Shown here: positions 36,056 through 60,580 of the stretch, in pieces
How positions within the stretch are numbered: position 1 is the first letter of the stretch
Layout of the letters: each line of letters begins with the position of its first letter
Virus record (IMG/VR): IMGVR_UViG_3300010885_035234
Span: 1-61,293 of that record
DNA from: a virus
Strand: one strand, 5' to 3'
DNA: 61,293 nt
Notes under the pieces: model-generated
Database searches by the model: none
What the model saw: the letters and a program-made list of their open reading frames with translations, nothing else
Told to the model about the DNA's origin: nothing
Translations under genes and position numbers: made by a program

Positions 36056-36065
36056 AACATTTCAG

Positions 36066-36139: not shown

Positions 36140-36172
36140 ATATATTATTTAAGTATTTGATTTTTTATAATT

Positions 36173-36202: not shown

Positions 36203-36230
36203 GACCTGTCGATTCCACCACTCTCAGTCA

Positions 36231-37483: not shown

Positions 37484-37543
37484 ATGTACGCTCCTTTGTG
37501 TTTTGTGTACGATGTTTGTATAACGCTGTATGCTGACCTGTCT

Positions 37544-37571
37544 ATTATGTAGCGGATCAGGAAAAAGTCAA
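37544..37571 (-). promoter_or_regulatory. Sigma70 promoter of the gp32-like gene
   Basis: On the minus strand TTGACT (37566-37571) and CATAAT (37544-37549) are 16 bp apart, with about 55 bases of leader before the gp32 ATG. Confidence 0.65.
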
Positions 37572-38433: not shown

Positions 38434-38458
38434 AGGGTATGTCCTTTCGTATATGAGG

Positions 38459-38486
38459 ATTATAACAGCACAACAAAGGAAGTCAA
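38459..38486 (-). promoter_or_regulatory. Sigma70 promoter of the gp33-gp59 operon
   Basis: On the minus strand TTGACT (38481-38486) and TATAAT (38459-38464) are 16 bp apart, 26 bases before the gp33 ATG. It diverges from the fibre gene on the plus strand. Confidence 0.85.
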
Positions 38487-38508
38487 GCAGTAATGCCGTC
38501 TTTCCATT

Positions 38509-38553
38509 TATACATATGGTATAAGTTGACAGCACAAGCCTAAAATGTATAAA
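38509..38553 (+). promoter_or_regulatory. Promoter region of the repeat fibre gene
   Basis: Two candidates overlap here: TATACATA at 38509-38516 (one base from the late octamer) and TTGACA (38526-38531) with TATAAA (38548-38553) at 16 bp. The second would start the transcript only about five bases before the ATG, inside the ribosome binding site, so the first is the better fit for a translated leader. Confidence 0.5.
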
Positions 38554-38564
38554 TGGGAGTCGCC

Positions 38565-45435: not shown

Positions 45436-45870
45436 TTATTTCTTGTTTAATCCGAATGCTTTTCTTCTTTTGTTTGCCAACCGCCGCTTTCGAGCAGATA
45501 CACTGTGCTTGGATTTGGCTCTTCTTGCAGAGCGTTTATTTCTTCTCTTTAGTTTTACCAAATCACTGGACTTACGCACCATGCAAGTTCTTCCTACCTT
45601 TTTCTTTCCTGGAGCACACACAAACAAAATCTTTTTGCGTCCACTACGAACAACCAACTTGCGCTTGACAGAGCCTTCTGTGATTGTTTCTTCTTGTACA
45701 TCGTTGTCATCCACATAGATGTATCCGTCTTCACCAACTGTATACGATATTCCCTGAGAGTCAAGAAAAGCCGTGACATCTTCAATGGATTTGCCGTCTA
45801 AATCAAACTCCACCGTTTGCTCGGCGGTTTCTTCTTTTAGATATTGCTTTATCTCGGTGAATGATTTCAT
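45436..45870 (-). CDS. Basic internal head protein with capsid-targeting leader
   Basis: A 144-residue protein. It starts MKSFTEIKQYLKEETAEQ, with a possible prohead-protease cut after LKE. A central acidic, beta part is followed by a Cys motif (FVCAPGKKKVGRTC) and a strongly basic C-terminus of about 45 residues rich in Lys and Arg (KLKRRNKRSARRAKSK). That tail should bind packaged DNA. ATG 45870 is chosen over the 28-residue longer frame because the leader motif begins there, right after the upstream stop. Function after delivery unknown. Confidence 0.75.
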   Translation of the reverse strand: MKSFTEIKQYLKEETAEQTVEFDLDGKSIEDVTAFLDSQGISYTVGEDGYIYVDDNDVQEETITEGSVKRKLVVRSGRKKILFVCAPGKKKVGRTCMVRKSSDLVKLKRRNKRSARRAKSKHSVSARKRRLANKRRKAFGLNKK

Positions 45871-45871
45871 T

Positions 45872-47485
45872 TTAGCACTTACATCCCCATACTCGTAGTG
45901 CTGCATTAATCTTGGAATCAGGATCTTTTGCAGTTTCTGCACGGGACAGCCCACCCTCGGGGTGGTTCTTGCCCTTTACAAATCCCTTGTAGGGTTTTTC
46001 TTTTTCCTCTGATAGTTCATTCTTGCGTCGAAGTGAGTTTGAAATTATTGAGGATACTGCCTCTTCCATTGAAGATGATGATTTTCTCTTCTCTCTTTTT
46101 ATCATGTCCTGTATGGTCTTGATATCTGAGGATCGGGATGCAATGATATTTCGGCAGCGTTTGTATTGTTTTGTGTCTCCTGCTGCCTTTGCTGCATGGG
46201 CAAGTTTCTTGTTCTTCTCTATTTCTGCAATACAATCGGTTATGCCTTGTTGCATTGTTTCAATTGATACTGCTTCTTTCATTTCTTGCCTTTCGTTCAG
46301 TTTCTGTAGATGTTTTCCAACAAGATCAGCGGCAAAGTCATCACGCAATTTTCTCGTCTTGTTTTTTCCAGGCTTCCATGCTCCAGCAACAGGTTTTGTG
46401 CGTGGTTTTGTTTGACCGAATTTTCCAGTGCTCTTTTTTCCGAATGTGGCTGCTGGCTTGCTTCTTTTTGGGGCATTATCACTGGCGGTTTTACTTTTGC
46501 TGCTTGCGGCTACTTCCAATTTCTTTTTGACAATGTTTTTGGCAACTCCACTAACCGAAGCCTTTTTCTCGGCAGACACGGCTGTCTTGCGCTTTCGATT
46601 CTCGCCTGATCGGCGTGATCCCTTTTCTAATTCTGCATATACCTTTGCTTCTTCCTCGGAGGCAAAGTATTTCTGCACGCCGCCCTTGTTCATTGCACCG
46701 AATGTTCCACGGCTTGTTTGCCATGATGTTCCAGGAGTGTGCTGCACCCGTTCGGCTGCTGCTTCGGGTGCTGCTGCCGCTCTTGCCGCCTGTGGTGGAG
46801 CCTCTCCGTTTGCCACAGCCTTTTCTGTTTCCTTTTGTGCAGCAAGAACAGCCTTGCGCCCGGCACTAATGCTTTCCTTGTGCTTTTTCACGGCTTCTTT
46901 TGGATCAACCGATGCTTGTTTGTGAGCCTTCATCCACTTTGGATCTTTTTCGGATAACCACTTCTCGCTCTGTTTTTGACTGGCATCCACACGGGATATG
47001 CGGCGTTGAAGTTTGCCAATGGTATCAGAGTTGGGAAAACTACGGTCTTCCTCTTCCTTCATCCGTGTCTCCATCTTTTCCCGCTGCTTTTGGAGGAAAA
47101 TCGCATGAGCACGCTGCTCGTAGTTGTTGTCTCCAGGCTTGTGCTTTACTGCATAGTCGGATGTAATGGATTCCAAGCGATCCATGTTCTCAAGGTTCGT
47201 CTTGCGGTGTCCGCTGAGTGCATCGTACTCGCCACGCATCTTTGTAGTACCAGCAACATCTCCACCTTTTTCGGCTGCCTCTATCTGCCCTTTGAGTGCC
47301 TCTTGTCTGGCACGAAGGTTCTTTTCGTTCATCTGTGCAGTATCGGCGGCAATCTGTAGGCGTTCACGAACAGCAGAAGGACAATCCTTGCTCATCTGTA
47401 CACCTGTAACGGCTCCCTTGGAGTCGGTGCTTATCTTCTCCATGAGATTCTGAATCTCGGTGATCTGTTCGTTTATTGTTTTCAC
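45872..47485 (-). CDS. Large Lys/Ala-rich internal head protein with capsid-targeting-like leader
   Basis: A 537-residue, very basic and helical protein. It opens MKTINEQITEIQNLMEKI, with a potential cut after ITE. Residues 40-230 are coiled-coil-like with many Gln, Lys and Glu; the middle is Ala/Pro-rich (PPQAARAAAAPEAAAERV); the rest is Lys/Arg-rich (KRKTAVSAEKKASVSG). A REQMKEAVS-like internal segment (ERQEMKEAVSIETM, about 400-413) may be another cut site. It may act as a scaffold or DNA-binding core protein. Its start overlaps the previous stop. Confidence 0.7.
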   Translation of the reverse strand: MKTINEQITEIQNLMEKISTDSKGAVTGVQMSKDCPSAVRERLQIAADTAQMNEKNLRARQEALKGQIEAAEKGGDVAGTTKMRGEYDALSGHRKTNLENMDRLESITSDYAVKHKPGDNNYEQRAHAIFLQKQREKMETRMKEEEDRSFPNSDTIGKLQRRISRVDASQKQSEKWLSEKDPKWMKAHKQASVDPKEAVKKHKESISAGRKAVLAAQKETEKAVANGEAPPQAARAAAAPEAAAERVQHTPGTSWQTSRGTFGAMNKGGVQKYFASEEEAKVYAELEKGSRRSGENRKRKTAVSAEKKASVSGVAKNIVKKKLEVAASSKSKTASDNAPKRSKPAATFGKKSTGKFGQTKPRTKPVAGAWKPGKNKTRKLRDDFAADLVGKHLQKLNERQEMKEAVSIETMQQGITDCIAEIEKNKKLAHAAKAAGDTKQYKRCRNIIASRSSDIKTIQDMIKREKRKSSSSMEEAVSSIISNSLRRKNELSEEKEKPYKGFVKGKNHPEGGLSRAETAKDPDSKINAALRVWGCKC

Positions 47486-47739
47486 TCGGAATCACCTTTC
47501 ATGTAGGTGTGTACAGAGTTAAGGTAGTCTGCTGCCCTGGTGATCTTGGATTGCACCCATGCTTCCAAGTCTTGGTTTGGCTCCATTAGTGCCAAGATTG
47601 CTTTGGCATCAGATATGAGGGATTGCAATTCGGCTTTCGCCATATCGCTTTCATCGCCACTACTGTCTCCAGTAGTGCTTGAGTCCTCGTTGAGTATTCT
47701 TAGAATCTTTTCTTGTAATCGTTCGTTCTCATTTTGCAT
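47482..47739 (-). CDS. Small acidic protein, head-associated type
   Basis: An 85-residue acidic protein: a helical start (NENERLQEKILRILNEDSS), a Ser/Asp-rich linker (TTGDSSGDESD), then LEAWVQSKITRAADYLNSVHTYM. The last segment is a pattern I recognise from proteins linked to head assembly in marine T4-like phages. It has no clear capsid-targeting leader but is coupled to the 537-residue gene by ATGA. Confidence 0.7.
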   Translation of the reverse strand: MQNENERLQEKILRILNEDSSTTGDSSGDESDMAKAELQSLISDAKAILALMEPNQDLEAWVQSKITRAADYLNSVHTYMKGDSE

Positions 47740-47758
47740 GGCAAGCCCTCTGTGTGTC

Positions 47759-47767
47759 TTTATTTAG
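47759..47767 (-). promoter_or_regulatory. Late-type promoter-like element (CTAAATAAA)
   Basis: CCTAAATAAAG on the minus strand, about 20 bases before the 47739 start and overlapping the stop of the upstream gene. Weaker than the others. Confidence 0.35.
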
Positions 47768-48549
47768 GCTTTTTGTGGGTAAGGATTTGTTTTTTCCCCT
47801 GCTAAAATAAATGGATTCTTCTTGTCAAACCATACAACCACGCCGTTCGCCATTGCTGTTCGTGGACTGTCGATTTCGGTGACTTCACCTCCCGTTTCCT
47901 GTGCGGTGACTCGGGCAATCATTCTGTAGATACGACCACGGGCAGGGTTTGCTGTCTCTTTTGTTCCAAAGATGATGCCACGGGGATTCTTTTTATTTAC
48001 AAAATCCTTGGCAGCATCAGTAACGGCTCCAAGAATCATTGCCGCATCGGCAGCACTGAAACGGTTCACCTCGTCGTCTGTTCCGGTATCCCAATTCCAA
48101 AGGAATCGTCCTGTCCTGCTCGGCATTCCTCTTTTTGCTGTAGTTAATGATGCTTCACGCATCGAGAATGATAATTCCCATACATTATTTCGGATGTCTC
48201 CGTCCGACATTAGTTCTAATTCACTATAGTCTTTTTCAAATTTTATATTGTAGAACTCTACGGTATATGCAACAGGCTTGAACTCTTTTGTAAACTCAAT
48301 CACAGAATCACCAAACACCTTGTCCCAATCATAAGAGCCAAGAGTAGGCACAATGTCTGTACTCTTGTTTTTAAGAAACCAACCAATAACAAATGCCTCT
48401 AAATCCTTGCCTTGGGGAGCCAGTTCAGCCTTGCCGCCCTTATTCATAAGAATAAATGTATATCCCCAAGTCGTATCTCCTGTGGAGAATGGTTTCATGG
48501 GAATCTTGCGGTCGAATAGTTCGGAGATGAAGGTTTTGTATGTTTTCAT
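47764..48549 (-). CDS. Hypothetical protein with capsid-targeting leader
   Basis: A 261-residue protein that begins MKTYKTFISELFDRK, almost the T4 internal-protein leader, with an expected cut after ISE. The mature part is mixed alpha/beta, with TGRFLWNWDTGTDDE and NPARGRIYRMIARVT segments in the second half. No enzyme motif recognised. It is the first gene of the minus-strand cargo group next to the plus-strand paralogous fibre genes. Confidence 0.75.
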   Translation of the reverse strand: MKTYKTFISELFDRKIPMKPFSTGDTTWGYTFILMNKGGKAELAPQGKDLEAFVIGWFLKNKSTDIVPTLGSYDWDKVFGDSVIEFTKEFKPVAYTVEFYNIKFEKDYSELELMSDGDIRNNVWELSFSMREASLTTAKRGMPSRTGRFLWNWDTGTDDEVNRFSAADAAMILGAVTDAAKDFVNKKNPRGIIFGTKETANPARGRIYRMIARVTAQETGGEVTEIDSPRTAMANGVVVWFDKKNPFILAGEKTNPYPQKA

Positions 48550-48608
48550 GGTTAATTATCTTTAATATAATATATAGGCTTTTCCCGTATTTTCTTACGG
48601 CTTTTGGT

Positions 48609-48617
48609 CATAAATAC
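48609..48617 (+). promoter_or_regulatory. Late-type promoter (CATAAATAC)
   Basis: CATAAATACG on the plus strand, about 87 bases before the 48704 ATG. It probably drives both paralogous virion proteins. Confidence 0.5.
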
Positions 48618-48703
48618 GCATGATGCTTATGGCATCGTATATTAGCCATCATATTATGTTTTCTTGAAAACAGAAACAAACAGGCTTAAAAAGGAATAAC
48701 ACT

Positions 48704-50506
48704 ATGGCAGAATATTACTGGGTAGGTGGCGCAACCGCCACTTCGGGATCTTATACCAATAATTTGGGTAATTTCTCAGGCAAAACGGGTGCAGAAAACA
48801 TGAATTGGATACTTGCATTTGATTGGAATAATCCAAACAATTGGGTTGAAAAGTTCGGACTCAATGGTGAATATTTTTTCCCAGCATTGAGATCTCCCTC
48901 GGCAGGAGATGTTGTTCAGTTTGGTGGTACTGGGACAAATAATCCACTGTATTTTATCGGTCAACCAAACGCAAAGGCTCCTTGCCTTTTCGGAGGAGTA
49001 GAACAATCAGGTAATGTTGTAACTTGGTACGGTGGAGGTGCATCTGGTACAAACTCTGTGGGTGGAACAAATGATACTGCTCTTGCTTTATTGAACATTG
49101 TAAATTTTAATAAACCAACAACAGCATACAAGTTTGCGAATATTGGATTCGGACAAGGAATTTCCAATCTATATTCTCCAAATACTGACCATTGTCCACT
49201 TCTTGATGCAGAAGCCAAGGGATTTACTCTTGATTCATCAATTTGGGGCGAAGCCTCTTGGGAATCTTTGGTTGCTGCTGTAGCAGCAACAGGTGGACTA
49301 ACAAGATTAAATCAACTGAAAATATCTGCTCAACAAATAAAAATTGGAGGAATTACGGCTGCTTCAAATCCAGATTCACCCAATGCAGGAAACAATATTA
49401 ATACTCTTGTAAATCAAGGTGTTGTTGATATTGAAACAGTAAAGAGTATTTCTTACTATGGTGCTACAGCTGGTAGTTCTGGTGGTTGGTTTGCAAACAC
49501 AACTGTTTCTTCGCAAGGACACCATGAGTTGCGCTTTAAGGGATATGCTCGCACAATGCAAATTAGCCCTGCCCGTAATTTTACAAGCACAAATCCAATA
49601 ACAAAACTAACAAATTATGATTCATACAGACAAGTTGGATTCCGAGCAACCGCACCAAGAGGATTACTGCTTCTACAAGGAGCAACAATTGCTCAATTAA
49701 CAGTAACCAATGCTGGAATCTCTGGAAATTTCGGAAGCATATATGCTGGCCCTACAACAAATATTGCAGAATTCCATGTGGATCAAATGGGAAATCCACA
49801 AGGAGGCTTTGTACAACTCTATGGCAGAATGGCAAGAGGAGAAGTCTTGAATGATATGGGAACCTATGCTATTGCATCAGGTGGCAATACCGCAGATGTT
49901 CCAAACATAGATTTTGGTAATGTTGCAATCAACAACACCGGTGACCCGGGCGTACAACTGCCTCTCTATGATGCTGCATTTGGGTCTAACCACAATCAGG
50001 TAGGGTTTAGAGGTGTAGTCATAGGAGGAGATGGTGCAACATTCACAGCCAATAGTTTGGTTTTGGGTAAAGATTTAGTATATAATGGCGACCTCGCCAA
50101 CACAGCACTTCAAGTATTTTTTGGTGGTAGTGCAGTAATAAACAAAATTGCGGCAAACAACTGCGATATTTCAGGATGGTATGTTGAAGGTTGGGGATCA
50201 ATAATTTCTCCAAATTCCAAGGTAAAAATACACACATTAGATATGAGAAAATCATGCAAACTTTCGTTTGCCCACTGTGCAGAATTTGATGGTTGGGAAT
50301 TTGGTGTTCAAGAAAACGGAATAATAAACGGTGGTGTTCTATCGTCTTCAAACATTTATGAGGATTATCAGGAAATAAGAGGAAGTAAGGGATTGAGACT
50401 TTGGAATGATACAATAATCGAAGGTGCGCTTTTTGCAGGAAATCTTACATCAACAAAACAGGGCAAGCCAATAACCACACCTGGTTCTGGAAACATAGCC
50501 TTCTAA
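48704..50506 (+). CDS. Virion surface protein, paralogue 1
   Basis: A 600-residue protein starting MAEYYWVGGATATSGSYTN, then NLGNFSGKTGAENMNWIL and FDWNNPNNWVEKFG. The same opening, a shared AKAPCLFGG motif and QSGNVVTW recur in the next gene, so the two are paralogues. Further on the pattern of short polar strands suggests a parallel beta helix. Aromatic and Asn-rich N-termini of this kind often mark proteins that bind each other in a fibre. I infer a tail-fibre or spike subunit. Confidence 0.75.
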   Translation: MAEYYWVGGATATSGSYTNNLGNFSGKTGAENMNWILAFDWNNPNNWVEKFGLNGEYFFPALRSPSAGDVVQFGGTGTNNPLYFIGQPNAKAPCLFGGVEQSGNVVTWYGGGASGTNSVGGTNDTALALLNIVNFNKPTTAYKFANIGFGQGISNLYSPNTDHCPLLDAEAKGFTLDSSIWGEASWESLVAAVAATGGLTRLNQLKISAQQIKIGGITAASNPDSPNAGNNINTLVNQGVVDIETVKSISYYGATAGSSGGWFANTTVSSQGHHELRFKGYARTMQISPARNFTSTNPITKLTNYDSYRQVGFRATAPRGLLLLQGATIAQLTVTNAGISGNFGSIYAGPTTNIAEFHVDQMGNPQGGFVQLYGRMARGEVLNDMGTYAIASGGNTADVPNIDFGNVAINNTGDPGVQLPLYDAAFGSNHNQVGFRGVVIGGDGATFTANSLVLGKDLVYNGDLANTALQVFFGGSAVINKIAANNCDISGWYVEGWGSIISPNSKVKIHTLDMRKSCKLSFAHCAEFDGWEFGVQENGIINGGVLSSSNIYEDYQEIRGSKGLRLWNDTIIEGALFAGNLTSTKQGKPITTPGSGNIAF

Positions 50507-50570
50507 CACAATCATTAACAAAACAAAAATGAATTCTGTGTAAACAAAACAGAAAAAAGAGGAAAAAACA

Positions 50571-52406
50571 ATGAGTATATTTGCATGGGTAGGAGGTTCC
50601 ACAGGAACCACAGGATCTTATACAAATCCACTTGGTAATTTTACAGGATTATACGGCGCAGCCAATATGAATTGGGTATTGCCTTTTGATTGGAATAATG
50701 CTCTAAATTGGTACGAGTATAGACTTCCATATATTGGGGCGAATCCAAATTCTATAGGTTGGTGGCTCTCAAAGAAAGCACCAGCAATAGGAGACATCGT
50801 AAAATTCTGTCCTGATGGTGTTACATTTGGTGTTGGGAATCCTCTTATGGGGGGGGTTCTTCCACAGGCAAAGGCTCCTTGCCTTTTCGGAGGAGCATCA
50901 CAATCAGGTAATGTTGTAACTTGGTTGGGAGGTTTGACCTCGGGAGCAGGAGCCTCGGGAACAACATACGATAGTAGTTTGCTTCAAATCCATATCGGAG
51001 CCAATGGCTTAAAGCCAAAGAATAATACTATCACAGATCCAGCCACTGGTCAGGTCATACTCGTTCCGACTGGTTTTAATACACAATATCCCTTCTCATA
51101 TATTGGAGGAGGATTGTTTACTGGTACAGGATCCGCAGGGACTTATCCTCAGAGTATTTATTTTCCTAATGCTTTAATAGATGCAGCAGCCCAAGGATTT
51201 GTGCTTAATCCCATGATTTGGGGTGGCACTGGTGATGGAGGTTTTGGTGGAGGTTGGAGTGCTGGTGCTTCTTCTGGTTACGGAACGATAGGATATTGGA
51301 ATTGGCTGCTAACACCAATCTTCGGCAATGGCTTTTATGGTGGAACAGGTGGAACAGAAAGATTAAAAGCAGGAATTCGCATCAAGACACCGATGTTTTC
51401 CACAACTCCAGATACAAGTGGAAGTTTAGTTGTAGGAAATAGTTATACCAACTCTCCAATACAGGGAATTATTCAGATCAACTGCCTAAAGAATTTTGTA
51501 TCTGTTCCAGGAGTAAGTGGTGCAACGGCTACCGCTTATGTTAATACGGTTGCAAATCTTTATGGAACTCCAGAATATGTTCTTTCTGGTTACTTCAATA
51601 CAATCAATAGATTCGGATGCACTGCCGAAATATGGAATAGTCGGTATAATGCTCCGCTAGGTACGATTCAGCGAAGACACTTGACACTCAAGGGAGCAAC
51701 AGCAGGAAAGATTGATGCAGAAGCAGGAAGATATCATGTTGAATGGAACTTTGATGATTATTCTAGTGTTGGATTTCTTCGTTGTGCACCAAAAAGCACT
51801 AGTTGGTCATTTAGATTGGCAAATGATTGGAATCGGGCAACAGTATTCCAAGATTTGGGAATGGGTACAACTTTTGATACCGACACACAAATATGGGTAG
51901 GTGGTTGGAGTCAAATAGCAGGATACAATACATCATATGACAATATTGGACTATTGTTAGGAAGAACCCCTGGTCTTATTGGAACACCGACACAGGTTAA
52001 TCTAAAGACAGTGTCGGTTGGAGAAGGTGCAAGCACCAACTCACATAATATGTATGTACGAGGGCCATTGGCAGTTAACAAGTTATTACTTAGCGCAACA
52101 ACCGTAACGACATCATCTCCGAGTACTCCCTATAGAATGGACTTTGGTGAAGTACAGTTATCTAATAATTCCAGTATTCAGATGATGGACTACTATAGTA
52201 ATTCGAATTGGTATTTCGGTATAAAGTACGGAGATTTGATCTCTGGAGGAATAGTATTCACAGATGAGATAAGTACTGTTGTTTTTAACAAGGGAGTAAG
52301 ATTGTATAATGATCAATTGGAAGTATCTAACTTTAGATCTGGAGTCTCGACCCGTCTAGGAAAGATAAACACCACAGCAGAAGTGATACCAAACGACTTC
52401 GTCTAA
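50571..52406 (+). CDS. Virion surface protein, paralogue 2
   Basis: A 611-residue paralogue of the preceding gene: MSIFAWVGGSTGTTGSYTN, LGNFTGLYGAANMNWVLPFD and AKAPCLFGGASQSGNVVTW. The central and C-terminal parts differ more, with a Gly-rich stretch (GGTGDGGFGGGWSAGASSG) and a beta-helix-like second half. An AGAGGAAA site precedes the ATG. A duplication followed by divergence of the distal regions suits receptor-binding variation. A terminator follows at 52443. Confidence 0.75.
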   Translation: MSIFAWVGGSTGTTGSYTNPLGNFTGLYGAANMNWVLPFDWNNALNWYEYRLPYIGANPNSIGWWLSKKAPAIGDIVKFCPDGVTFGVGNPLMGGVLPQAKAPCLFGGASQSGNVVTWLGGLTSGAGASGTTYDSSLLQIHIGANGLKPKNNTITDPATGQVILVPTGFNTQYPFSYIGGGLFTGTGSAGTYPQSIYFPNALIDAAAQGFVLNPMIWGGTGDGGFGGGWSAGASSGYGTIGYWNWLLTPIFGNGFYGGTGGTERLKAGIRIKTPMFSTTPDTSGSLVVGNSYTNSPIQGIIQINCLKNFVSVPGVSGATATAYVNTVANLYGTPEYVLSGYFNTINRFGCTAEIWNSRYNAPLGTIQRRHLTLKGATAGKIDAEAGRYHVEWNFDDYSSVGFLRCAPKSTSWSFRLANDWNRATVFQDLGMGTTFDTDTQIWVGGWSQIAGYNTSYDNIGLLLGRTPGLIGTPTQVNLKTVSVGEGASTNSHNMYVRGPLAVNKLLLSATTVTTSSPSTPYRMDFGEVQLSNNSSIQMMDYYSNSNWYFGIKYGDLISGGIVFTDEISTVVFNKGVRLYNDQLEVSNFRSGVSTRLGKINTTAEVIPNDFV

Positions 52407-52442
52407 AACAAATAGGCTTAGGCTTACCTACACAATACAAAG

Positions 52443-52474
52443 ACACCCTGCTGAAAGGCAGGGTGTTCTTTTTT
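52443..52474. terminator. Bidirectional terminator
   Basis: A 9-bp stem (ACACCCTGC/GCAGGGTGT) with a six-base loop, followed on the plus strand by TCTTTTTTA. It ends the paralogue operon and lies just before the HAD gene stop on the minus strand, so it may serve both. Confidence 0.85.
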
Positions 52475-53048
52475 ATCCTTTGTATCTGGGCGAATACTTT
52501 ACCAATCGTGTCTTGATCCGAACATTTCCAGGATCAGACAACTTCTTGATGTACTCAATGTTGAGGGAGTTGTCATCAAACACCTCAATGTCATTGTAGC
52601 CCCTGTCAATCTCGGCTGCAATCCAATCACGCTTTGCACGGGCAATGCCTTCGTGTGATCCACCTGCCTTGCTGCCGATTGCCACAACCTCTATGTCTAT
52701 TCCCATGTTCTTTAAATATTTTTCCACTCCTGCCCCGTTAGCCCTACCAGTGAGTATCACGGTACGACCTCCACGCCTCATTACCCTACGCATAATCTTT
52801 AGAGTGGCAGGAATAGGATCGGCTCTTATCTCTTTCTTTGAGTGTCCCTCGAAATCAAATCTTTCGTTGTCTTTCAACTTGTAAGACTTGAACTTCTCTG
52901 ATGAAAGGCGATTTACAATTTCTCCAGTGGTTTTATCAAGCACATCAACTGTGGATTTGTCCACGGCAAGAGTATCGTCAAAGTCAAATATCCAAAGAGA
53001 CTTACGGGGAGAGGCGAGTTCTGTGATATACCGTGAGAAAGACTTCAT
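52473..53048 (-). CDS. HAD-superfamily phosphatase with capsid-targeting leader
   Basis: A 191-residue protein. The leader is MKSFSRYITELASPRK (expected cut after ITE), followed by the HAD motif I in WIFDFDDTLA with nucleophile D22 and acid/base D24. Motif II is VILTGRA near 97, a Lys lies near 125, and motif IV is EVFDDN near 162. The plan resembles polynucleotide kinase-type 3'-phosphatases and other small HAD enzymes. If packaged in the head it could process nucleic acid ends or nucleotides in the new host. Confidence 0.85.
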   Translation of the reverse strand: MKSFSRYITELASPRKSLWIFDFDDTLAVDKSTVDVLDKTTGEIVNRLSSEKFKSYKLKDNERFDFEGHSKKEIRADPIPATLKIMRRVMRRGGRTVILTGRANGAGVEKYLKNMGIDIEVVAIGSKAGGSHEGIARAKRDWIAAEIDRGYNDIEVFDDNSLNIEYIKKLSDPGNVRIKTRLVKYSPRYKG

Positions 53049-53050
53049 TG

Positions 53051-53785
53051 TTATATCTTTTTATTCAAAACCAAATCAACAAATTTGTGATGCGTCATAA
53101 CCCGTGCAGTTGCAGGGCTGTTATCGAATCTCAATATCTCACGCTGTTGCCAAGAGGACAAAAGATCGGTGAAATCAGGATTGAACAGGCATTTCCTTGA
53201 CTTTGTTTTCATCATCCATACCACAGGTATGTACGGAGCAGTCTCTTTTCCTGTTGCCATCTCGTCTGCAATTCTTTCCCATTCCTTGGCGATTCGATTA
53301 CGGCTGTATGATCTCCATGTTGCATAGTTTTGAGTTCCCCATGTGAATCGCATTGATGTGATAAAGTCTGTTGACCAACTCTCAACAACACGCTTGTGGT
53401 GATAGGGAATAGATGCAATAACAATGCCATCTTTCCTTTTAGAATTTGGAAAACTTTGTGTCATCTTTTTGAACAGATTGAGCGGTAATCCCATTCCTCG
53501 GTACATCCACTCTCCTGTTGAAGGTATGAGTTTGTTTCGGTACAGTTTGGCACAATCAGCACAATCCCAAAGTGTATCCAATGACTTTTTCAGCCCTGCA
53601 TCAAGCACCTCTTGGCTTGTTCCCCGTGCTGCTGCATATCCAGGAGAGTGGTTGTGCTCAAGATAATTCTTTAAATTAGTGAATGTACGGTTTTCCCAAA
53701 GAGTATCTTCTTCGTCTTGCTTGAGGTGATCTGCAAACAGACTGCTGCCGAACAGCATTTTGCAATAGTCTATTTTTTCTTTCAT
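53051..53785 (-). CDS. Possible ADP-ribosyltransferase
   Basis: A 244-residue protein without a clear capsid-targeting leader. Three segments sit in the order seen in R-S-E type ADP-ribosyltransferases: WMYRGMG (R96), ESWSTDF (S136, S138, T139) and WQQREILRF (Q214, E216, the Q-x-E form). T4 codes for three such enzymes, and Alt is packaged in the head, which makes this reading attractive. The likeness is by motif only and the intervening sequence is not diagnostic. It lies two bases downstream of the PD-(D/E)xK gene stop. Confidence 0.5.
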   Translation of the reverse strand: MKEKIDYCKMLFGSSLFADHLKQDEEDTLWENRTFTNLKNYLEHNHSPGYAAARGTSQEVLDAGLKKSLDTLWDCADCAKLYRNKLIPSTGEWMYRGMGLPLNLFKKMTQSFPNSKRKDGIVIASIPYHHKRVVESWSTDFITSMRFTWGTQNYATWRSYSRNRIAKEWERIADEMATGKETAPYIPVVWMMKTKSRKCLFNPDFTDLLSSWQQREILRFDNSPATARVMTHHKFVDLVLNKKI

Positions 53786-54609
53786 CTTTCTCCCTTTAGT
53801 GTTTTGGATAGACCATTAACAGCAGACTCATAATTATCAAGCGATATAGAAGACTTTGCTCCTGCAAGTTTGAGTCTGCCCTGTACACGGTATCCAACAG
53901 AGCGATAGGGCTTTCCACCAGATCCTGCTGGTCCTGGACGCATCTCTATGTCAATGTCTCCCTCAAGCATTGGAACTTCAAGACCCAATATGTCATTGCC
54001 TGTATGAAACAGACCCATTCCTCCGATTTGAATATAGTCTACATTCTTCTTCTGATAGTGCTGACGAATCCATTGTGCATTATATTTTATCTTTTTATTT
54101 GTTGGAATGATTAGTCCTGCTTTCTTGGCGGCTTCCCAATCCTTGTTCTTTACCTTTAGTGGAAATCCCAATCCTTCATCGGTATCATAGAATGGATCAC
54201 CAAGCGAAGAGAAATGGTCTAGTAGTTGGTCAAGGTATTTTACAACAGGAATAAGGGCATTAGAGAACATCTCTACATCTTCTTCTTTGATCTTTGTGAA
54301 ATCAAAGCGATCCACAAGACGGTCAGGAAACGAACCAACAAATCCGTCTGCGTCCCGTTCATAATTGATGGATGTGCCGCCCATCTGTGCATTGCCATCC
54401 ATCTTGATCTCCATGTTGATGGTTCGACCATTAATGGTGAAAGATGCATCTCCTGATCCAGCAGAAGAAAATGCTCCACCAGCACTCTCTATTCTCTTGA
54501 AATTGGGATACTCTTTCGCAAGTCTGTCCATGACAGCCTCTACCTTTTTCTCATAATTTACTCCACCCATGCCTACAGATTCTGCCAAATAAGATTTGAA
54601 AGTCTTCAT
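53782..54609 (-). CDS. PD-(D/E)xK nuclease-like protein with capsid-targeting leader
   Basis: A 275-residue protein beginning MKTFKSYLAESVGMGG, nearly the T4 leader, with an expected cut after LAE. GSGDASFTING followed by NMEIKMDG gives D54, E67 and K69 in the spacing of PD-(D/E)xK nucleases (resolvases and restriction-type enzymes). The rest is alpha/beta with a GLEVPMLEGDIDIEMRPGP segment. If packaged, a nuclease could attack host DNA or clear defences on entry. Activity is inferred from motifs only. Confidence 0.7.
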   Translation of the reverse strand: MKTFKSYLAESVGMGGVNYEKKVEAVMDRLAKEYPNFKRIESAGGAFSSAGSGDASFTINGRTINMEIKMDGNAQMGGTSINYERDADGFVGSFPDRLVDRFDFTKIKEEDVEMFSNALIPVVKYLDQLLDHFSSLGDPFYDTDEGLGFPLKVKNKDWEAAKKAGLIIPTNKKIKYNAQWIRQHYQKKNVDYIQIGGMGLFHTGNDILGLEVPMLEGDIDIEMRPGPAGSGGKPYRSVGYRVQGRLKLAGAKSSISLDNYESAVNGLSKTLKGER

Positions 54610-54647
54610 GTTTGTCTCCTAATTTACAGGATATGTAGTAGAGCAGC

Positions 54648-55394
54648 CTACTCCACGAATGGGGGCATGGGATCAGGAGGCAAGAACATAGAGCAGATGC
54701 GTTCACGAATCAAAAATGTAGGAAAGGCATACATTGTGCCATTCAGTGCATTTCTACGAACAATAATGCCTACACAGCGTCCGTTCTCTGTAAACAACCC
54801 GCCGCCGCTGGAGCCGTTCATGCCTACAGCATCGGTATGAATGAAATGTATTTTTGCATTGGGTGAAATGCTTATGCTTCGGAACGGATGACACACAACT
54901 CCACGACTAACTGTTCCTGCATCAAGCAACGGAGAACCAATCATCCATACAGGTTGTCCGATACGAGGAAGCGTGTCCGCAAAATCCACAAATTGCATTC
55001 CTTGCTTTTCTTCATCTATTTGCAGCACAGCCCAATCCTCAACCGGATCAAGCGCAATAACCTTTGCCGAGGTACTGTACTGTATTTCCTCGATTCCTGG
55101 TTGGTATCCAATGATATGAATGATTTTCTGCCCGTAGGTTTTTGGAGTTTCTTTTTCTGCATCCCCATCGGCTATAACATGAGCAGCAGTAATCATGCCC
55201 ACCTTGTCACCCGTTTTAAACAAGACTCCTGCACCTGCTGATCCATCATAAAACACAAGTGGAACGGCTCTTACCATCCGTTCCACATCAACTGTTGTTG
55301 GGGTTGCGATAATAGGGGTATTGGCAACAGGCACAGAGGATTTGCATCCTCCAACCATAGCGAGTGCCATTGCTAAAACTAATGCAATTTTCAT
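54648..55394 (-). CDS. Trypsin-like serine protease lipoprotein
   Basis: A 248-residue exported protease. The signal ends in a lipobox (LAMVGGC, lipid Cys 17), so it should be anchored in a membrane on the periplasmic side. The catalytic triad is visible: H72 in ITAAHVIA, D120 in VEDWAVLQ and S196 in MNGSSGGGLF, the DegP/trypsin pattern. It has no PDZ domain. It could clip host surface or envelope proteins, for instance to block superinfection. An AAGGAGG site precedes the ATG. Exported proteases are rare in phages. Confidence 0.85.
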   Translation of the reverse strand: MKIALVLAMALAMVGGCKSSVPVANTPIIATPTTVDVERMVRAVPLVFYDGSAGAGVLFKTGDKVGMITAAHVIADGDAEKETPKTYGQKIIHIIGYQPGIEEIQYSTSAKVIALDPVEDWAVLQIDEEKQGMQFVDFADTLPRIGQPVWMIGSPLLDAGTVSRGVVCHPFRSISISPNAKIHFIHTDAVGMNGSSGGGLFTENGRCVGIIVRRNALNGTMYAFPTFLIRERICSMFLPPDPMPPFVE

Positions 55395-55441
55395 GGCTGA
55401 CCTCCTTGGATAAATCTATTTTATCTATGGATTTATCAGAG
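55395..55441 (-). promoter_or_regulatory. Hairpin in the protease leader
   Basis: GATAAATC and GATTTATC pair across a 13-base AT loop in the leader of the protease gene, just upstream of its AAGGAGG. It may be an attenuator or a weak terminator of the NUDIX gene; the GATAAATCC is also late-promoter-like. Confidence 0.35.
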
Positions 55442-56578
55442 TCAGACCCGTGGTTTTCCAAGCATTTTCTTTGTATGGGTCTTGCCGCCGATCTTTCGGG
55501 AATACGACCCATCATCTCCCTGCCATTGGATTTCCTTGCCTTTCAGCACATGGCGCACGGTAGCCTCGTCCTTTACAACAGGCGCACCACGGGCAACAAG
55601 TATGTCAAAGATTTTTCCACTTGCCTCCACATAACTTCCTGGAGTATTGAGTATGTCCACGGCTTTCTTTAGAACCTCACGCTTGGCTTCGGTTCCACCG
55701 TCCGATGCAATCGTGGTCATCTTTTTGCCGAACGGAGTGGTTTTTGACAGCACTGCTGCATCCACATCGTCTTGTGGATCGGTGTCTATGACATCGGTAA
55801 TGTTGTTGTCCGCAGGAACAGAGTCTGCATTGGGAAAATCAGGATGTCCTCCAAGCGGTGCATAGGCTGCACTAATAATGTTGAAAATGTCGTGCTGAAC
55901 ATCGGTGTTGCCACGCACCTGTTGAATTGACAAGGTGTCCCATTCGTTCTTTTTTGCAGTAAGACCACGGTTTGCTTCAACAAGAAAATCTTTGAACAAT
56001 ACGATTCGACTTTCATTGGTCTGGTTGAAAGCCTTGCGTTGCTTTGCTTTTTTATTGGTTCCAAGCGCATCGGTGATTATATCCTTGTGATCAAATGCAA
56101 GAAGAGGCAAGCGGTCAACCGAGAACCACTTTGCATCGGATGCATCGTCGGTTCCACGCACATTCTTGCCCATGCCTCGGGGTATTGTGACGGTATAGGC
56201 ATACGAGATCGACCATGCCTGATCTGTGTCACGGGGATCACGACCGCCACCCTTGTATGTGCCCACGGATCGCATGGCTTGGCGCAGTTCTCCCGTGATT
56301 TTTAGTCCTGTCTCTTCCTCCATCTCACGCACGGCTGCATCGGCAATCGGTTCCGTGGTTCCATTCTTCCATGCTTCGCCACGCTTGGCTGTGGTATTAA
56401 CGAAACCGCCAGGAATAGCCCACTTTCCGCCTTCAACTGCATCTGTCCTGCGCTTGATGAGCAGAATCTCTAAGCCGCTGGCTGCCTCACGAAAAACCAC
56501 AAGGTCTACCGTTGGATTTGCACCGGAAAAACGATAGCCTTCTGCTGCTTCAATGATGTATTGTGAAAAGGGTTTCAT
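55442..56578 (-). CDS. NUDIX hydrolase fused to a second domain, two capsid-targeting-like segments
   Basis: A 378-residue protein starting MKPFSQYIIEAAEG (cut expected after IIE). Residues 20-175 are a NUDIX fold: the box runs from E76 through R84-E85-M-E-E-E-T-G91, preceded by WAIPGGFV; its first loop has an insertion of about 15 residues. Residues 194-202 (LFKDFLVEA) look like a second leader, and behind it lies a distinct domain with AYAPLGGHPDF and GSYVEASGKIFDIL, seen in marine phage proteins annotated as GNAT-like. NUDIX enzymes cut X-linked nucleoside diphosphates such as ADP-ribose. The substrate here is not known. Confidence 0.85.
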   Translation of the reverse strand: MKPFSQYIIEAAEGYRFSGANPTVDLVVFREAASGLEILLIKRRTDAVEGGKWAIPGGFVNTTAKRGEAWKNGTTEPIADAAVREMEEETGLKITGELRQAMRSVGTYKGGGRDPRDTDQAWSISYAYTVTIPRGMGKNVRGTDDASDAKWFSVDRLPLLAFDHKDIITDALGTNKKAKQRKAFNQTNESRIVLFKDFLVEANRGLTAKKNEWDTLSIQQVRGNTDVQHDIFNIISAAYAPLGGHPDFPNADSVPADNNITDVIDTDPQDDVDAAVLSKTTPFGKKMTTIASDGGTEAKREVLKKAVDILNTPGSYVEASGKIFDILVARGAPVVKDEATVRHVLKGKEIQWQGDDGSYSRKIGGKTHTKKMLGKPRV

Positions 56579-57204
56579 TTCTTTGCCCTCAGTTCAAGAT
56601 GGGTATCCATTGCTTTATCCGTAGCATCCGACGAGTACTTGTGCATTCGAATACCCTTGGATGCTGCCTTGCGACGAACTTCTCCACTACCAGACTGCCA
56701 TATGTCTCCCGTGTGCAACTTGCTTGCTTGTCCAAGATCTGTCTTCTTTCCACCATAAGGATGGTGTACCGCATGGACATACTTCTTGGTTTGGGGATCA
56801 TTCATCAGACCATGCCATATGGATGCACCACCTGGACTCTGCTCATTACCGCTACGAATGGTATAGCCTTGCTTATGAAGATGCTTGTATGCAGCAACGG
56901 CAAGCGAGTGTCCGATCTTCTTCTTTGTATGATCAGGATGAACAGCAGTCGCCTCCACTTCGAGATGCTTGCTTTTGTGGGGAGTCTGATTTGAAATATT
57001 CCCAACCACCTTATTGCTCTTGTCATGAATGATGAAGAAGTCTCCACCCGACTTATAAAGAGAATAGTCCTTGTGAATCTTTCCAAGATTCTTCTTATTT
57101 GAATAATCAAACTCATCCTGTGCAGTATTCATATCCCCACGGGTAGCCCTTCGAATACCAGAAATAAGTTCGATATCTTCAAGGAGTTGGCGATAGGTCT
57201 TCAT
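56575..57204 (-). CDS. GNAT acetyltransferase with capsid-targeting leader
   Basis: A 209-residue protein. MKTYRQLLEDIELISG gives a leader with LLE as likely cut site. The GNAT core is in the middle: FFIIHDKSNKVVGNI, then LEVEATAVHPDHTKKKIGHSLAVAAYKHLHK with the acetyl-CoA loop. The C-terminus is basic (GEVRRKAASKGIRMHK). GNAT proteins acylate amines on proteins, antibiotics or small molecules. A packaged acetyltransferase could modify host proteins at entry. Its stop overlaps the NUDIX start. Confidence 0.8.
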   Translation of the reverse strand: MKTYRQLLEDIELISGIRRATRGDMNTAQDEFDYSNKKNLGKIHKDYSLYKSGGDFFIIHDKSNKVVGNISNQTPHKSKHLEVEATAVHPDHTKKKIGHSLAVAAYKHLHKQGYTIRSGNEQSPGGASIWHGLMNDPQTKKYVHAVHHPYGGKKTDLGQASKLHTGDIWQSGSGEVRRKAASKGIRMHKYSSDATDKAMDTHLELRAKK

Positions 57205-57210
57205 TTATTT

Positions 57211-57711
57211 TTAAAGAGGGTTGTATGTTTTTTCGAACTCTGCCTTTGCTATGCGGTAGTATCCACCGTCGTCTTTCTCCCGCACAACATAGTCACCTTT
57301 CTTTAGAACCATCTGTTCTCCCCACGAAGCGGTAAAACTAATGCTATCTTTTCCTGTATAAAGAGCAACCATTCGATCACTCTGCTCTGGATAGACTTTT
57401 CCACCAATACTTCCTTCATAGAGTTTTGGAAACTTTGCTGATTTTATAACATACTTTTCCCTGCTAGTTCCCGACATGATGATATCGTTTTTCGTGGCAG
57501 TATTATCTGTTTCTTTGCCATCAGGAAGAACTGTTGTAACCTTTACACCATCTTCGGGATTTACTCCGTATGATAGTTTAGGCATTTGGTTAATGCTGCC
57601 TTTCGAGAGATCGTAGAAGAGATACATGATTCTCTTCTTTTTTACAGGATTGTAGTTCAAAGAAGAGAGTATATTGTGGGATTCATTGATGTATTGTGAA
57701 AACGGTTTCAT
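57211..57711 (-). CDS. Hypothetical protein with capsid-targeting leader
   Basis: A 166-residue protein starting MKPFSQYINESHNILSS, with the same first eight residues as the NUDIX protein and an expected cut after INE. The mature part is beta-rich, ending WGEQMVLKKGDYVVREKD and YRIAKAEFEKTY, a pattern of a small domain seen in other phage proteins. No enzyme motif found. Six bases separate it from the GNAT gene. Confidence 0.75.
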   Translation of the reverse strand: MKPFSQYINESHNILSSLNYNPVKKKRIMYLFYDLSKGSINQMPKLSYGVNPEDGVKVTTVLPDGKETDNTATKNDIIMSGTSREKYVIKSAKFPKLYEGSIGGKVYPEQSDRMVALYTGKDSISFTASWGEQMVLKKGDYVVREKDDGGYYRIAKAEFEKTYNPL

Positions 57712-58425
57712 TTATTTGATGTTTTTAAGGAAGTACGGCGCATAGATGTCGATCTTGCCTTCACGAAGATAGCGGGCCACTATTGCTTCTTGATTTTTCT
57801 GATCATCAATCACAGGCATATTACTTCTGGCTGGTGATCGGGGTGGAGTCCTGGCTCGCTTGATGAAACCAATACGCCTCTTTAATTCAGCCTCTCCACC
57901 AATGCCAGCCAACCATGCAATTGCCTTCTGTTTGTCATAGAACTTTGCATCCATTCCCTTGCCTTCAAGTATTGCTTCCATTGCATCCCGCATGGTTGAT
58001 CCGAATATGTTTGAGTCGCCCGAAGGTGCGCCTCGACGGGTATTGCCAAAGGCATCTCCTGCTGCACGAAGCACGGGAACCAAATCTCTGATATCCAGTG
58101 CCACCTGTATTCCAGTGATTCTTGCAGAAGGCTTGTTTAGCAGGGTTGCTGCCCAACGGTGGTGACCGTCTAAAATATAATTATCATGGCTCACTACGCT
58201 TTTCAGATCGCCGCCAGCCACGCCGCCGATTGCCATTCCTAACGCCTTGCCTAAGTACACATCCTTTTGCGTTGGCTTCAGCATTTTGGCATCCCAAGTA
58301 TGCGGTCCGGCTCCAACCACATCATCCTTCAAGTTGCCGTCATCAAATCCCATTTGAAAGAATGGCCCGTGAAGTTCTTGGGGAAGCGGATTAGGAAAGC
58401 GTTTGTGGTTAATCTTTTTTGCCAT
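57712..58425 (-). CDS. ParB/sulfiredoxin-like nuclease-domain protein
   Basis: A 237-residue protein with a ParB-like core: VVSHDNYILDGHHRWAATL near 80-100 contains the D-G-H-H-R-W signature of ParB/Srx-fold proteins, some of which are nucleases or CTPases. A small C-terminal basic segment follows (RRIGFIKRARTPPRSPARS). No capsid-targeting leader is visible. ATG 58425 has an AGAGGA site; the longer frame to 58509 overlaps the upstream gene. Its role within the cargo operon is unknown. Confidence 0.78.
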   Translation of the reverse strand: MAKKINHKRFPNPLPQELHGPFFQMGFDDGNLKDDVVGAGPHTWDAKMLKPTQKDVYLGKALGMAIGGVAGGDLKSVVSHDNYILDGHHRWAATLLNKPSARITGIQVALDIRDLVPVLRAAGDAFGNTRRGAPSGDSNIFGSTMRDAMEAILEGKGMDAKFYDKQKAIAWLAGIGGEAELKRRIGFIKRARTPPRSPARSNMPVIDDQKNQEAIVARYLREGKIDIYAPYFLKNIK

Positions 58426-58438
58426 TGGATATTCCTCT

Positions 58439-58732
58439 TTATTCGTTTGGTAGTCTGATAATAACGCTGCCGTGCCATATACGAATGGATTCGGCATCAG
58501 GGTATTCATCCCATAGCATATTTATCAATTTTTTCTCTAATTGGCGCTGGGTCGGGCGATCTGTGCGTTTAGGAGTCTCGGGTGTCCATTGACCCTGCAA
58601 TGCCCCACCCAAGTTGAACTGGGGCGCATTTGTAAACTGTGGAATTTCGAAAAGCAGATCCTGCACAGGTATCACTAGTGTTTCGGCACAGGCACTTCCT
58701 GTAAGCATAAGAGACAGCAGGAAAGCCTTCAT
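58439..58732 (-). CDS. Small secreted protein
   Basis: A 97-residue protein with a signal peptide (MKAFLLSLMLTGSACA, cut before ETLV). The mature part of about 80 residues is polar, with a Pro-rich linker (WTPETPKRTDRPTQ) and an alpha/beta end (LINMLWDEYPDAESIRIWHG). It starts inside the stop of the previous gene (TGATG). It may act in the periplasm alongside the lipoprotein protease. No family recognised. Confidence 0.7.
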   Translation of the reverse strand: MKAFLLSLMLTGSACAETLVIPVQDLLFEIPQFTNAPQFNLGGALQGQWTPETPKRTDRPTQRQLEKKLINMLWDEYPDAESIRIWHGSVIIRLPNE

Positions 58733-59109
58733 CAGAAGAGATCCCCGTTAAAGAAGAGTTCACTGGAGATCCAGCCGTAGTCGCCCTGTTGCAATTTCTT
58801 CTCGGCGGTCACTAGTTTTTTCTCCATGCTTGCGAGCCGCTTGTCCTGTAGGATGATGTGGTCTTCAACCATCTTCATCTTGTCCTTCCAGTCGGCTATG
58901 GATTGCATTGCCTCTTTCTTCTCCGATGTTCCCTCGCTTAACGGATCCGCTTTCATTGCCTCGACCTCTTCATAGCCCATGAACGGCTTGGGCTTCTTCT
59001 TCTTTTTGTCGCAATCCTTGCCCTTGCACGGCGGCTTGGGCTTTAGCACAGAGTCATCTCCGTACATACGGGAATCGGTTTCGGCTATGAGTTGGCTGTA
59101 TGTTTTCAT
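58732..59109 (-). CDS. Hypothetical protein with capsid-targeting leader
   Basis: A 125-residue protein starting MKTYSQLIAETDSRMYG, with LIAE matching the T4 cut site. A Lys-rich part (PPCKGKDCDKKKKKPKP) with two Cys precedes a long helix (DWKDKMKMVEDHIILQDKRL, then SMEKKLVTAEKKLQQ) that is probably a coiled coil. No enzyme motif. Confidence 0.75.
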   Translation of the reverse strand: MKTYSQLIAETDSRMYGDDSVLKPKPPCKGKDCDKKKKKPKPFMGYEEVEAMKADPLSEGTSEKKEAMQSIADWKDKMKMVEDHIILQDKRLASMEKKLVTAEKKLQQGDYGWISSELFFNGDLF

Positions 59110-59111
59110 TA

Positions 59112-59288
59112 TTATTTTCCTTGCTGTCCTGCCTTCACTGTTTGGGGTTTGCCCTTATCGTATGCAATATGTAGTTTGCCGCCGTCAAGCATCCCACGCT
59201 GCCGTCTATATTCCTTTGGGTCATGGGCAGTAGAAAAGTCACGAAACGAAACAATACGCTGTGCTTCCGGCTTGGAATCGTTCTGCAT
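59112..59288 (-). CDS. Small basic protein in the cargo operon
   Basis: A 58-codon gene, filling the gap between two leader-bearing genes and ending two bases before the next start. The product is polar and basic (SFRDFSTAHDPKEYRRQRGM, ending VKAGQQGK). An AAGAAAGA ribosome binding site is present. No leader or family recognised. Confidence 0.65.
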   Translation of the reverse strand: MQNDSKPEAQRIVSFRDFSTAHDPKEYRRQRGMLDGGKLHIAYDKGKPQTVKAGQQGK

Positions 59289-59297
59289 GGGTCTTTC

Positions 59298-59783
59298 TTA
59301 TCTGTCCCAAGGCTTGGAGCCCGGGCGGAAATCTGTTAACGAAAAGATGATTTTATATGTGCCCTTCTTCATGGCGGCTTCTGCTGAAGCCAAATCCATC
59401 TGCAATCGTTTTAATTCCCGCCCTGCACCTTGAATGTGCCGCTCCAATTCCCCGATTCGATCCTCTAATCGAATAACGGCTTGCTCTGCCTCGATTTTTA
59501 ACCGCTCATCCGGTTTCGGCACACGCCCATTAGCAATGGCAGAAAGCGTTAGCCGAAGCATTTCGGCATCAGATTCGCCTCCCTGTATAGAAACAACTTC
59601 TGTGTAGTCGTCCACATCGCCTTGGGCATTTGTTGCTTGGAAAACGGCTGTTTCGTCTGCCATTGAGGAGTACGATATAACAAAGTAGCGGTCGCCGATC
59701 TGGTACACAGTCATGCCGTTACTGTTTTTGCCTAATCGACGGGGTTGTAGGCTTTCGCCCAAGAATTCTCGGTACTGTTTCAT
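59298..59783 (-). CDS. Hypothetical protein with capsid-targeting leader and coiled coil
   Basis: A 161-residue protein. Leader MKQYREFLGESLQPRR (cut expected after LGE), then a small beta domain (GMTVYQIGDRYFVISY and AVFQATNAQGDVDDY), then a long helix from about 100 to 145 (EDRIGELERHIQGAGREL) likely forming a coiled coil. No enzyme motif. Its ATG overlaps the previous stop. Confidence 0.75.
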   Translation of the reverse strand: MKQYREFLGESLQPRRLGKNSNGMTVYQIGDRYFVISYSSMADETAVFQATNAQGDVDDYTEVVSIQGGESDAEMLRLTLSAIANGRVPKPDERLKIEAEQAVIRLEDRIGELERHIQGAGRELKRLQMDLASAEAAMKKGTYKIIFSLTDFRPGSKPWDR

Positions 59784-60580
59784 GTGTGTGCTCCCCCTGC
59801 CGACCTTTGCCTCGCCGCAGCCTTTTCCCGATCCAATCTCTGCTGAAGTCCGCCGACGGGCGAATAGAGGTAGTGATCTTGCGCCTGTTTCCTATACCAA
59901 GTATCAGCCTCATCCCTGCTTGGGAAATATCTGACTATACCGTTATGTGTTGCCTTCCATCCGCTACCGTTTGTCTCGTCAACACCGTCTCTTTTTCTTT
60001 GTATTTCTTCGTGACCACGGGATGCCCTCTCCCGATCTGCAAGGGCTGCCGTGCGCTGCAACTCCTCTTCTCGATCAAGTTCAAACACATTATTTCCAGT
60101 GTCATCCCGAAATCGCCCTTTGCCTAAGTTCCTTGAACCTCCTGCACTTGAGAATCTACCTTTTGTGTGCTGTGACCATCTACCAAGATCGAGCCTATCA
60201 CTTTCATTGCTTGGATCAAAGTGGCTTGGCGAACCACCAACAGCCTTTTCACCAGTTCCTCTGTTGAACCAACTGTCATTTGCCTTTACCCTTTGCTGCC
60301 CCTCACGGCTCTCCATGTCTTTCCGACTTCCAAACCGCAATGCGGTAGTGTTTCTTACTCTTCCTAATTTTGGCACAAGCACCGACGCAACTCTAGCAAT
60401 TTTAGCAGCAGTCCGAATTCCCCCTGCGATTGGTTGGGGTATTGCGCCTTTTTCTCCACGCATAGCCTTCCGTAAATGGACTAATCCTTTTTTAAACAGG
60501 CTTGTCTCGTCCAATTGTTCTAATTGTTCTGGGTCTATTTGTTCGCTTATCTGTTTTTTAAATTCTTGGTACTGTTTCAT
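59780..60580 (-). CDS. Basic internal-head-type protein with capsid-targeting leader
   Basis: A 266-residue, basic, low-complexity protein. It starts MKQYQEFKKQISEQIDPEQ, with a possible cut after ISE. Helical segments (KGLVHLRKAMRGEKGA, then AAKIARVASVLVPKLGR) are followed by Arg/Gly/Ser-rich sequence and a short alpha/beta module near 205-230 (GWKATHNGIVRYFPSRDEAD). This composition suits a DNA-binding head protein. The 73 bases before the next gene (60581-60653) hold no recognised site. Confidence 0.7.
   Translation of the reverse strand: MKQYQEFKKQISEQIDPEQLEQLDETSLFKKGLVHLRKAMRGEKGAIPQPIAGGIRTAAKIARVASVLVPKLGRVRNTTALRFGSRKDMESREGQQRVKANDSWFNRGTGEKAVGGSPSHFDPSNESDRLDLGRWSQHTKGRFSSAGGSRNLGKGRFRDDTGNNVFELDREEELQRTAALADRERASRGHEEIQRKRDGVDETNGSGWKATHNGIVRYFPSRDEADTWYRKQAQDHYLYSPVGGLQQRLDREKAAARQRSAGGAHT

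Follow-up and report, generated by a model that had tools for sequence, protein, structure and literature searches.

The 61,293-base virus record IMGVR_UViG_3300010885_035234, analyzed here in its entirety (the window), contains at positions 45436–60580 a leftward cluster of genes (the locus) that is likely to be a set of exchangeable head-cargo cassettes, each with a T4-type capsid-targeting sequence (CTS; hereafter the leader). A cassette would consist of a protein placed behind such a leader. Residues 4 and 7 of the leader would draw the protein into the prohead core, and a gp21-type protease would cleave after an L/I-x-E motif at residues 8–10 (11–13 in two cases). The mature protein would remain in the head and then enter the host along with the DNA, an ejection step anticipated from T4, and may act there on host defence or metabolism. 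The NUDIX precursor would be split by the same protease at an internal leader, yielding two cargo proteins.

The features of the locus are listed below; genes are named in the text by the coordinate at which they start.

45436–45870, minus: leader-bearing gene, 144 amino acids, MKSFTEIKQYLKEE; long-leader form with LKE at 11–13; very basic C-terminal part; phrog_33445, 3.9e-5
45872–47485, minus: leader-like gene, 537 amino acids, GTG start, MKTINEQITEIQ; leave-one-out score 10.2; no family match
47764–48549, minus: leader-bearing gene, 261 amino acids, MKTYKTFISE; strict pattern and profile; G002 homolog in the same slot
52473–53048, minus: leader-bearing HAD protein, 191 amino acids, MKSFSRYITE; phrog_415 polynucleotide kinase, 1.4e-9; PF03767, 4.8e-5, below cut-off
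53782–54609, minus: leader-bearing gene, 275 amino acids, MKTFKSYLAE, supposed nuclease (unproven); strict pattern and profile; absent from G022
55442–56578, minus: leader-bearing NUDIX protein with second domain, 378 amino acids, MKPFSQYIIE; PF00293, 4e-15
55976–56008, minus: internal leader copy RIVLFKDFLVE, residues 191–201, at the junction of the NUDIX and second domains; candidate site of internal cleavage; conserved G001 counterpart SIVSFKTFIAE
56575–57204, minus: leader-bearing GNAT-type protein, 209 amino acids, MKTYRQLLED; PF00583 over cut-off; leader matches that of the distant G009 over 11 residues
57211–57711, minus: leader-bearing gene, 166 amino acids, MKPFSQYINE; PGDYG/phrog_419-like C-terminus; strict pattern and profile
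58732–59109, minus: leader-bearing gene, 125 amino acids, MKTYSQLIAE; strict pattern and profile
59298–59783, minus: leader-bearing gene, 161 amino acids, MKQYREFLGE; strict pattern and profile; weakly similar to the 59109 gene
59780–60580, minus: leader-like gene, 266 amino acids, MKQYQEFKKQISEQ; long-leader form with ISE at 11–13

Statistics of the Leader

A preliminary description of this DNA had proposed that at least eleven proteins share the leader. All eleven open reading frames (ORFs) are present on the minus strand; the start at 45870 is an in-frame ATG within a slightly longer ORF, and the start codon of 47485 is GTG. Seven start codons in the window fit the strict pattern MK.[FY]..[FYL][LI].E, and all of them lie on the minus strand within the locus. 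Markov-1 random sequence gave a mean of 0.0 matches, and a search for the pattern as DNA returned 7 matches, against 0 in the reversed control.

The N-terminal profile that the preliminary description had suggested was built as a position matrix and scored leave-one-out with a cut-off of at least 8 bits for window genes; it is a small profile with a bias toward this clade. It recovers 9 of 61 window genes compared with 2 of 8,640 pseudo-ORFs (Fisher p ~1e-18), and the higher-scoring of the two pseudo-ORF matches is probably a leader remnant in the relative G001. The profile adds 57204 and 47485 to the seven strict-pattern genes, and all nine belong to the locus, which has 18 genes (p ~3e-6), the weakest being 47485, with I at position 4 and Q at position 7. 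The 45870 and 60580 leaders lie outside the ten-residue register; they keep an aromatic residue at 4 and F/I at 7, and their L/I-x-E at 11–13 recalls T4 IPI, whose leader is longer. Nine of the proposed leaders are therefore strong, and the remaining two are weaker long-leader forms.

In T4, ten residues are sufficient as a CTS, with residues 4 and 7 responsible for targeting and residues 8 and 10 controlling processing (PMC9026906). The corresponding positions (K2, aromatic at 4, F/Y/L at 7, L/I at 8, E at 10) are found in nine genes, the other two being the long-leader variants. All eleven carry a candidate L/I-x-E cleavage site inside the 10–19 residues expected of a propeptide, ending at residues 9–13, as opposed to 7 of 43 other window genes with the motif anywhere in residues 8–20; for the strong leaders, this count is partly built into the search pattern.

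Leader-Bearing Proteins in Cyanophage Virions

A virion proteome of 52 proteins has been published for the cultured cyanophage S-CREM2 (PMC10665884). The profile used for this phage drew its training sequences solely from the window, the relatives of the window and T4, and its cut of 4 bits was picked after the scores had been seen, with the top five ranks all being virion proteins at any cut. Five of the 219 annotated N-termini score above 4 bits, and all five belong to the virion proteome: a cytidylyltransferase, a SAM hydrolase, an APH/ChoK-like kinase and two unassigned proteins, none of them structural. No positives occur among the 167 undetected or the 24 structural proteins (p 4e-5 against undetected proteins; 6e-4 against all genes). 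Near residue 17, a Cas9-like protein in the S-CREM2 virion contains LRFASFMAEAA, and the single non-structural enzyme detected in S-SZBM1, also a cytidylyltransferase, starts with MRFRQFIIEA, one residue short of register.

Pooling the proteomes of S-CREM2, S-SZBM1 and S-SCSM1 in strict register gives 6 of 9 positives detected, compared with 1.8 expected (p 0.003). Because of this enrichment and the presence of every S-CREM2 positive in the virion, head targeting of leader proteins is likely; virion detection does not prove ejection. A separate observation concerns a conserved cyanophage protein of ~106 amino acids with a strong leader (M-K-[ST]-[YF]-K-[QS]-F...VNISGDFNG; S-RIM2 100855, S-SCSM1 44215, S-SZBM1 gene 191), which was not detected in the virion proteomes of S-SCSM1 and S-SZBM1.

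Exchange of Cassettes among Relatives

Comparison with related phages indicates that whole leader-plus-cargo cassettes are swapped, lost or gained. The surroundings of one slot are near-identical in G001 and G002 (591/600 and 992/1000 bases); at this slot, G002 has a leader-bearing gene of 253 amino acids, and G001 has a remnant of 79 bases bearing another leader, MKTFHQYITELAS, which resembles the start of the HAD gene of the window. The close relative G022 retains most of the locus at 82–100% identity, without the 54609 cassette and with different genes past 59783. In G001, one domain occurs both with and without a leader (50232 vs. 51160, 43% identical), and a paralog of 54609 is leaderless. 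G009, a distant relative, carries a leader cluster of its own (MKTYREFIVE, MKSFNRFIAE, MKSFSQFLTE), and its GNAT protein has the leader of the window protein over 11 residues, with the whole proteins 63% identical. Near this cluster (locus L318), two regions of G009, 38742–39701 and 32195–38881, display repeated N-termini of another kind, MRY[TS]EAR[KQ]ILAEAAL[RL]ELGLL and M[NS]NQFL[QN]HLNSITPQGRAKDT.

The body of 54609 differs from its G001 homolog by 73 synonymous and 7 nonsynonymous changes over 257 codons, and the leader by 1 synonymous and 5 nonsynonymous changes over 11 codons. These leader changes spare residues 2, 4, 5, 7 and 10, and residue 8 switches between L and I only. Between the window and G022, leaders and bodies are equal in amino-acid change, and leaders are higher in synonymous change; to judge from this comparison, constraint acts on the leader peptide. 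Profile statistics and comparison with relatives uphold the T4-type leader of the preliminary description as a genuine, modular element that is under constraint at the peptide level.

An Internal Leader in the NUDIX Protein

From residue 191, where the second domain half of the NUDIX protein begins, the sequence reads RIVLFKDFLVEA. At this junction its homolog in G001 reads SIVSFKTFIAEA, despite a long extra stretch preceding it. The second domain is a separate gene in G001, with the start MKSFKGYI, and phage pT24 encodes this domain alone. The simplest reading of these arrangements is that two cargo genes were fused and that the second leader was retained as a putative processing site. The NUDIX protein thus looks like a two-part cargo polyprotein that would be cleaved at the internal leader. 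The short ORF at 59112–59288 contains RIVSFRDF, resembling RIVLFKDF of the internal leader, and is perhaps a remnant.

Predicted Cargo Functions

The leader is shared by mostly unrelated cargo, as far as protein comparison reveals: all-against-all blastp with the leaders removed found a single similar pair, 59109/59783, with a weak E of ~1e-4. The NUDIX and GNAT assignments of the preliminary description are secure (PF00293 at 4e-15; PF00583 over cut-off), and the phrog_415 match (1.4e-9) supports a HAD/polynucleotide-kinase-phosphatase-like protein at 53048. The nuclease proposed at 54609 is unproven, with no family match and an AlphaFold model that was discarded as unusable (pLDDT 42). A D54...E67-x-K69 arrangement, invariant in 54609 and its paralog, suggests a PD-(D/E)xK nuclease.

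Pfam, PHROGs and PADLOC gave weak or no matches for most of the cargo and no known defence homologs, and no Alt-family match was found among the cargo with Pfam and PHROGs. Matches to PF04687 and PF01514 were below cut-off and were judged to be chance. Searches against phage records returned 0 matches for the locus at the level of near-identical DNA and none for the 54609 and 48549 proteins, and profile searches of the PDB gave nothing usable.

Two other kinds of gene lie in the region. A peptidase of the trypsin family (PF13365, 9e-18), lipoprotein-like and bearing an export signal, is encoded at 54648–55394, and two similar-looking plus-strand proteins of ~600 amino acids (48704–50506 and 50571–52406) interrupt the minus-strand locus; a family search with one of the latter gave no match.

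Phage Affiliation

The phage is likely, as part of the overall cargo-cassette interpretation, a myovirus of the T4 superfamily with kinship to marine cyanophages and pelagiphages. Two genes of T4-superfamily type are encoded on the window, UvsX and a gp32-type single-strand-binding protein; UvsX shares 63% identity with its counterpart in Pelagibacter phage HTVC008M and ~52–61% with those of the marine cyanophages listed. The relatives G001 and G007 carry genes for a T4-type tail tube, baseplate hub and DNA end protector. The record itself is probably an incomplete genome fragment. It also contains a phage-encoded transfer-messenger RNA gene (36231–36562; tag ANTQYRLAA) together with six transfer RNA genes (25239–36139).

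Opposing Evidence and Alternative Explanations

Several observations weigh against the interpretation of the locus as head cargo. No head genes and no recognized prohead protease are present on the 61-kb fragment or in its close relatives; the gp21-type protease gene that the preliminary description had proposed looking for was not recognized, a scan for the gp21 family (PF03420) finding none on the window or in these relatives. Because gp21 was found in five T4-type records (T4, HTVC008M, S-RIM2, G008 and G011), its absence here is most simply read as a missing part of the genome. When the baseplate hub and gp21 were used to search toward the head genes, gp21 turned up in relatives, but no contig could be linked to this clade. 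The T4-type late promoter (TATAAATA), which is a frequent though not a strictly required feature in T4, is not enriched in the window and does not occur near the locus, and the T4 consensus may not be that of this phage. The cluster is also mixed, because 47482, 53051, 54648, 57712, 58439, 59112 and the plus-strand genes 48704 and 50571 have no leader. Faster evolution of leaders was rejected as a general rule, since it was seen only for 54609 vs. G001 and not between the window and G022. Among the cyanophages, neither of the two small profile-positive proteins of S-SZBM1 was detected in the virion, and only one of the two positives of S-SCSM1 was (NMNAT, MKSFLQFLKEA, but not a 106-amino-acid protein); these two proteomes are shallower, with 1 of 4 positives detected together.

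Recruitment into the prohead core could also mean that the proteins are core, scaffold or DNA-condensing components and not delivered effectors. The mature parts are basic in 9 of 11 cases, and 45870 and 47485 are conserved in both sub-lineages, as structural genes are. This explanation is nevertheless unlikely, as the NUDIX, GNAT and HAD domains are unlike scaffold, the cassettes are dispensable between close relatives, and the T4 proteins bearing the leader are injected (PMC12373910).

Considerably less probable is a signal unrelated to the head, such as a tag for stability or for docking to some other phage complex. The three positives unseen in the virions of S-SZBM1 and S-SCSM1 would be in line with it; the agreement of the leader with those positions of the T4 CTS that have been tested, and with the L/I-x-E cleavage motif, speaks against it, as do the enrichment in S-CREM2 virions and the pooled result.

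A DNA or RNA element, for example a translation start enhancer or a recombination sequence, with the peptide being incidental, is very improbable. All strong copies but one are at gene starts, and the 56578 and 57711 leaders are close in DNA, but the same residues are encoded by differing codons throughout, the leaders of the window and G022 differ by 10 synonymous and 4 tolerated nonsynonymous changes in 77 codons, and the motif recurs within the NUDIX protein, away from its start. Chance or ordinary start-codon composition, for which one could invoke the commonness of MK starts and a profile match to an apparent thymidylate synthase of T4 (at 145112, which we take to be td and counted as a false positive), is refuted by the pseudo-ORF and random-sequence counts.

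Comparison with Known Systems and Significance

The locus is probably a variant of the T4 internal-protein system. It shares with T4 IPI, IPII and IPIII an MKTYQEFIAE-type leader at residues 1–10 with an L/I-x-E site, mature parts that are unrelated to one another and for the most part basic, and a gene content that varies between relatives. It differs in having nine to eleven such genes in one 15-kb locus, where T4 has three, and in its enzyme domains and internal leader. T4 Ip1–3, which are injected, block GmrSD enzymes; across T-even relatives, at least 10 internal proteins with a varied repertoire have been reported (PMC12373910). The same profile matches 4 genes in T4, 8 of 386 in Vibrio phage CZ01 and 1–2 in each of three marine phages. 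Because of CZ01 and the T-even repertoire, many leaders per genome are not unprecedented, and the unusual size of the set had been overstated; what is new here is how densely they are packed, at nine to eleven in 15 kb, together with the enzymes among the cargo and the leader inside the NUDIX protein.

T4 Alt, a head-carried ADP-ribosyltransferase that is ejected and cut by gp21 (PMC9026906), resembles the predicted cargo as an enzyme of the head, with the difference that NUDIX, GNAT and HAD proteins occur here and no Alt-family match was found. The virion enzymes of S-CREM2 (SAM hydrolase, APH/ChoK kinase and cytidylyltransferase) and S-SCSM1 (NMNAT) have the same leader by profile and a different cargo. 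P1 DarB likewise has an N-terminal packaging signal, in a different phage group, and the P1 Dar proteins, unlike the locus, have no common N-terminal consensus (PMC9024508). The ejection proteins of giant phages, also a different group, are described as protease-processed head cargo (PMC10052503).

In the uncultured 634,780-base phage LR745206.1 (locus L093), twenty genes start with MK-x-L-x-x-[FY]-E, and its NUDIX homolog of 56578 starts with MVFIKKFESFDK. Such starts number 0 in the reversed control, T4, S-RIM2, CZ01 and the window, and possibly represent another leader dialect in a huge phage.

More tentatively, the leaders may constitute a delivery code that can be transferred throughout the T4 superfamily and has local dialects, among them perhaps the MKxLxx[FY]E starts of the 635-kb phage, in which gain of a leader would package any protein and tandem leaders would give protease-processed polyproteins. 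Cyanophage virion proteomes repeatedly hold enzymes whose entry route is unexplained; the accessible text of these studies reports no leader, and their authors could not exclude carry-over contamination. Such a code, if true, would explain the virion entry of cyanophage NMNAT, SAM hydrolase, kinase and Cas9-like proteins. A predictive leader makes the entry of enzymes testable and head-delivered proteins readable from genomes. The internal leader would be an unfamiliar route to pack two proteins as one precursor, and the locus would provide about ten candidate effectors of the first minutes of infection in one phage.

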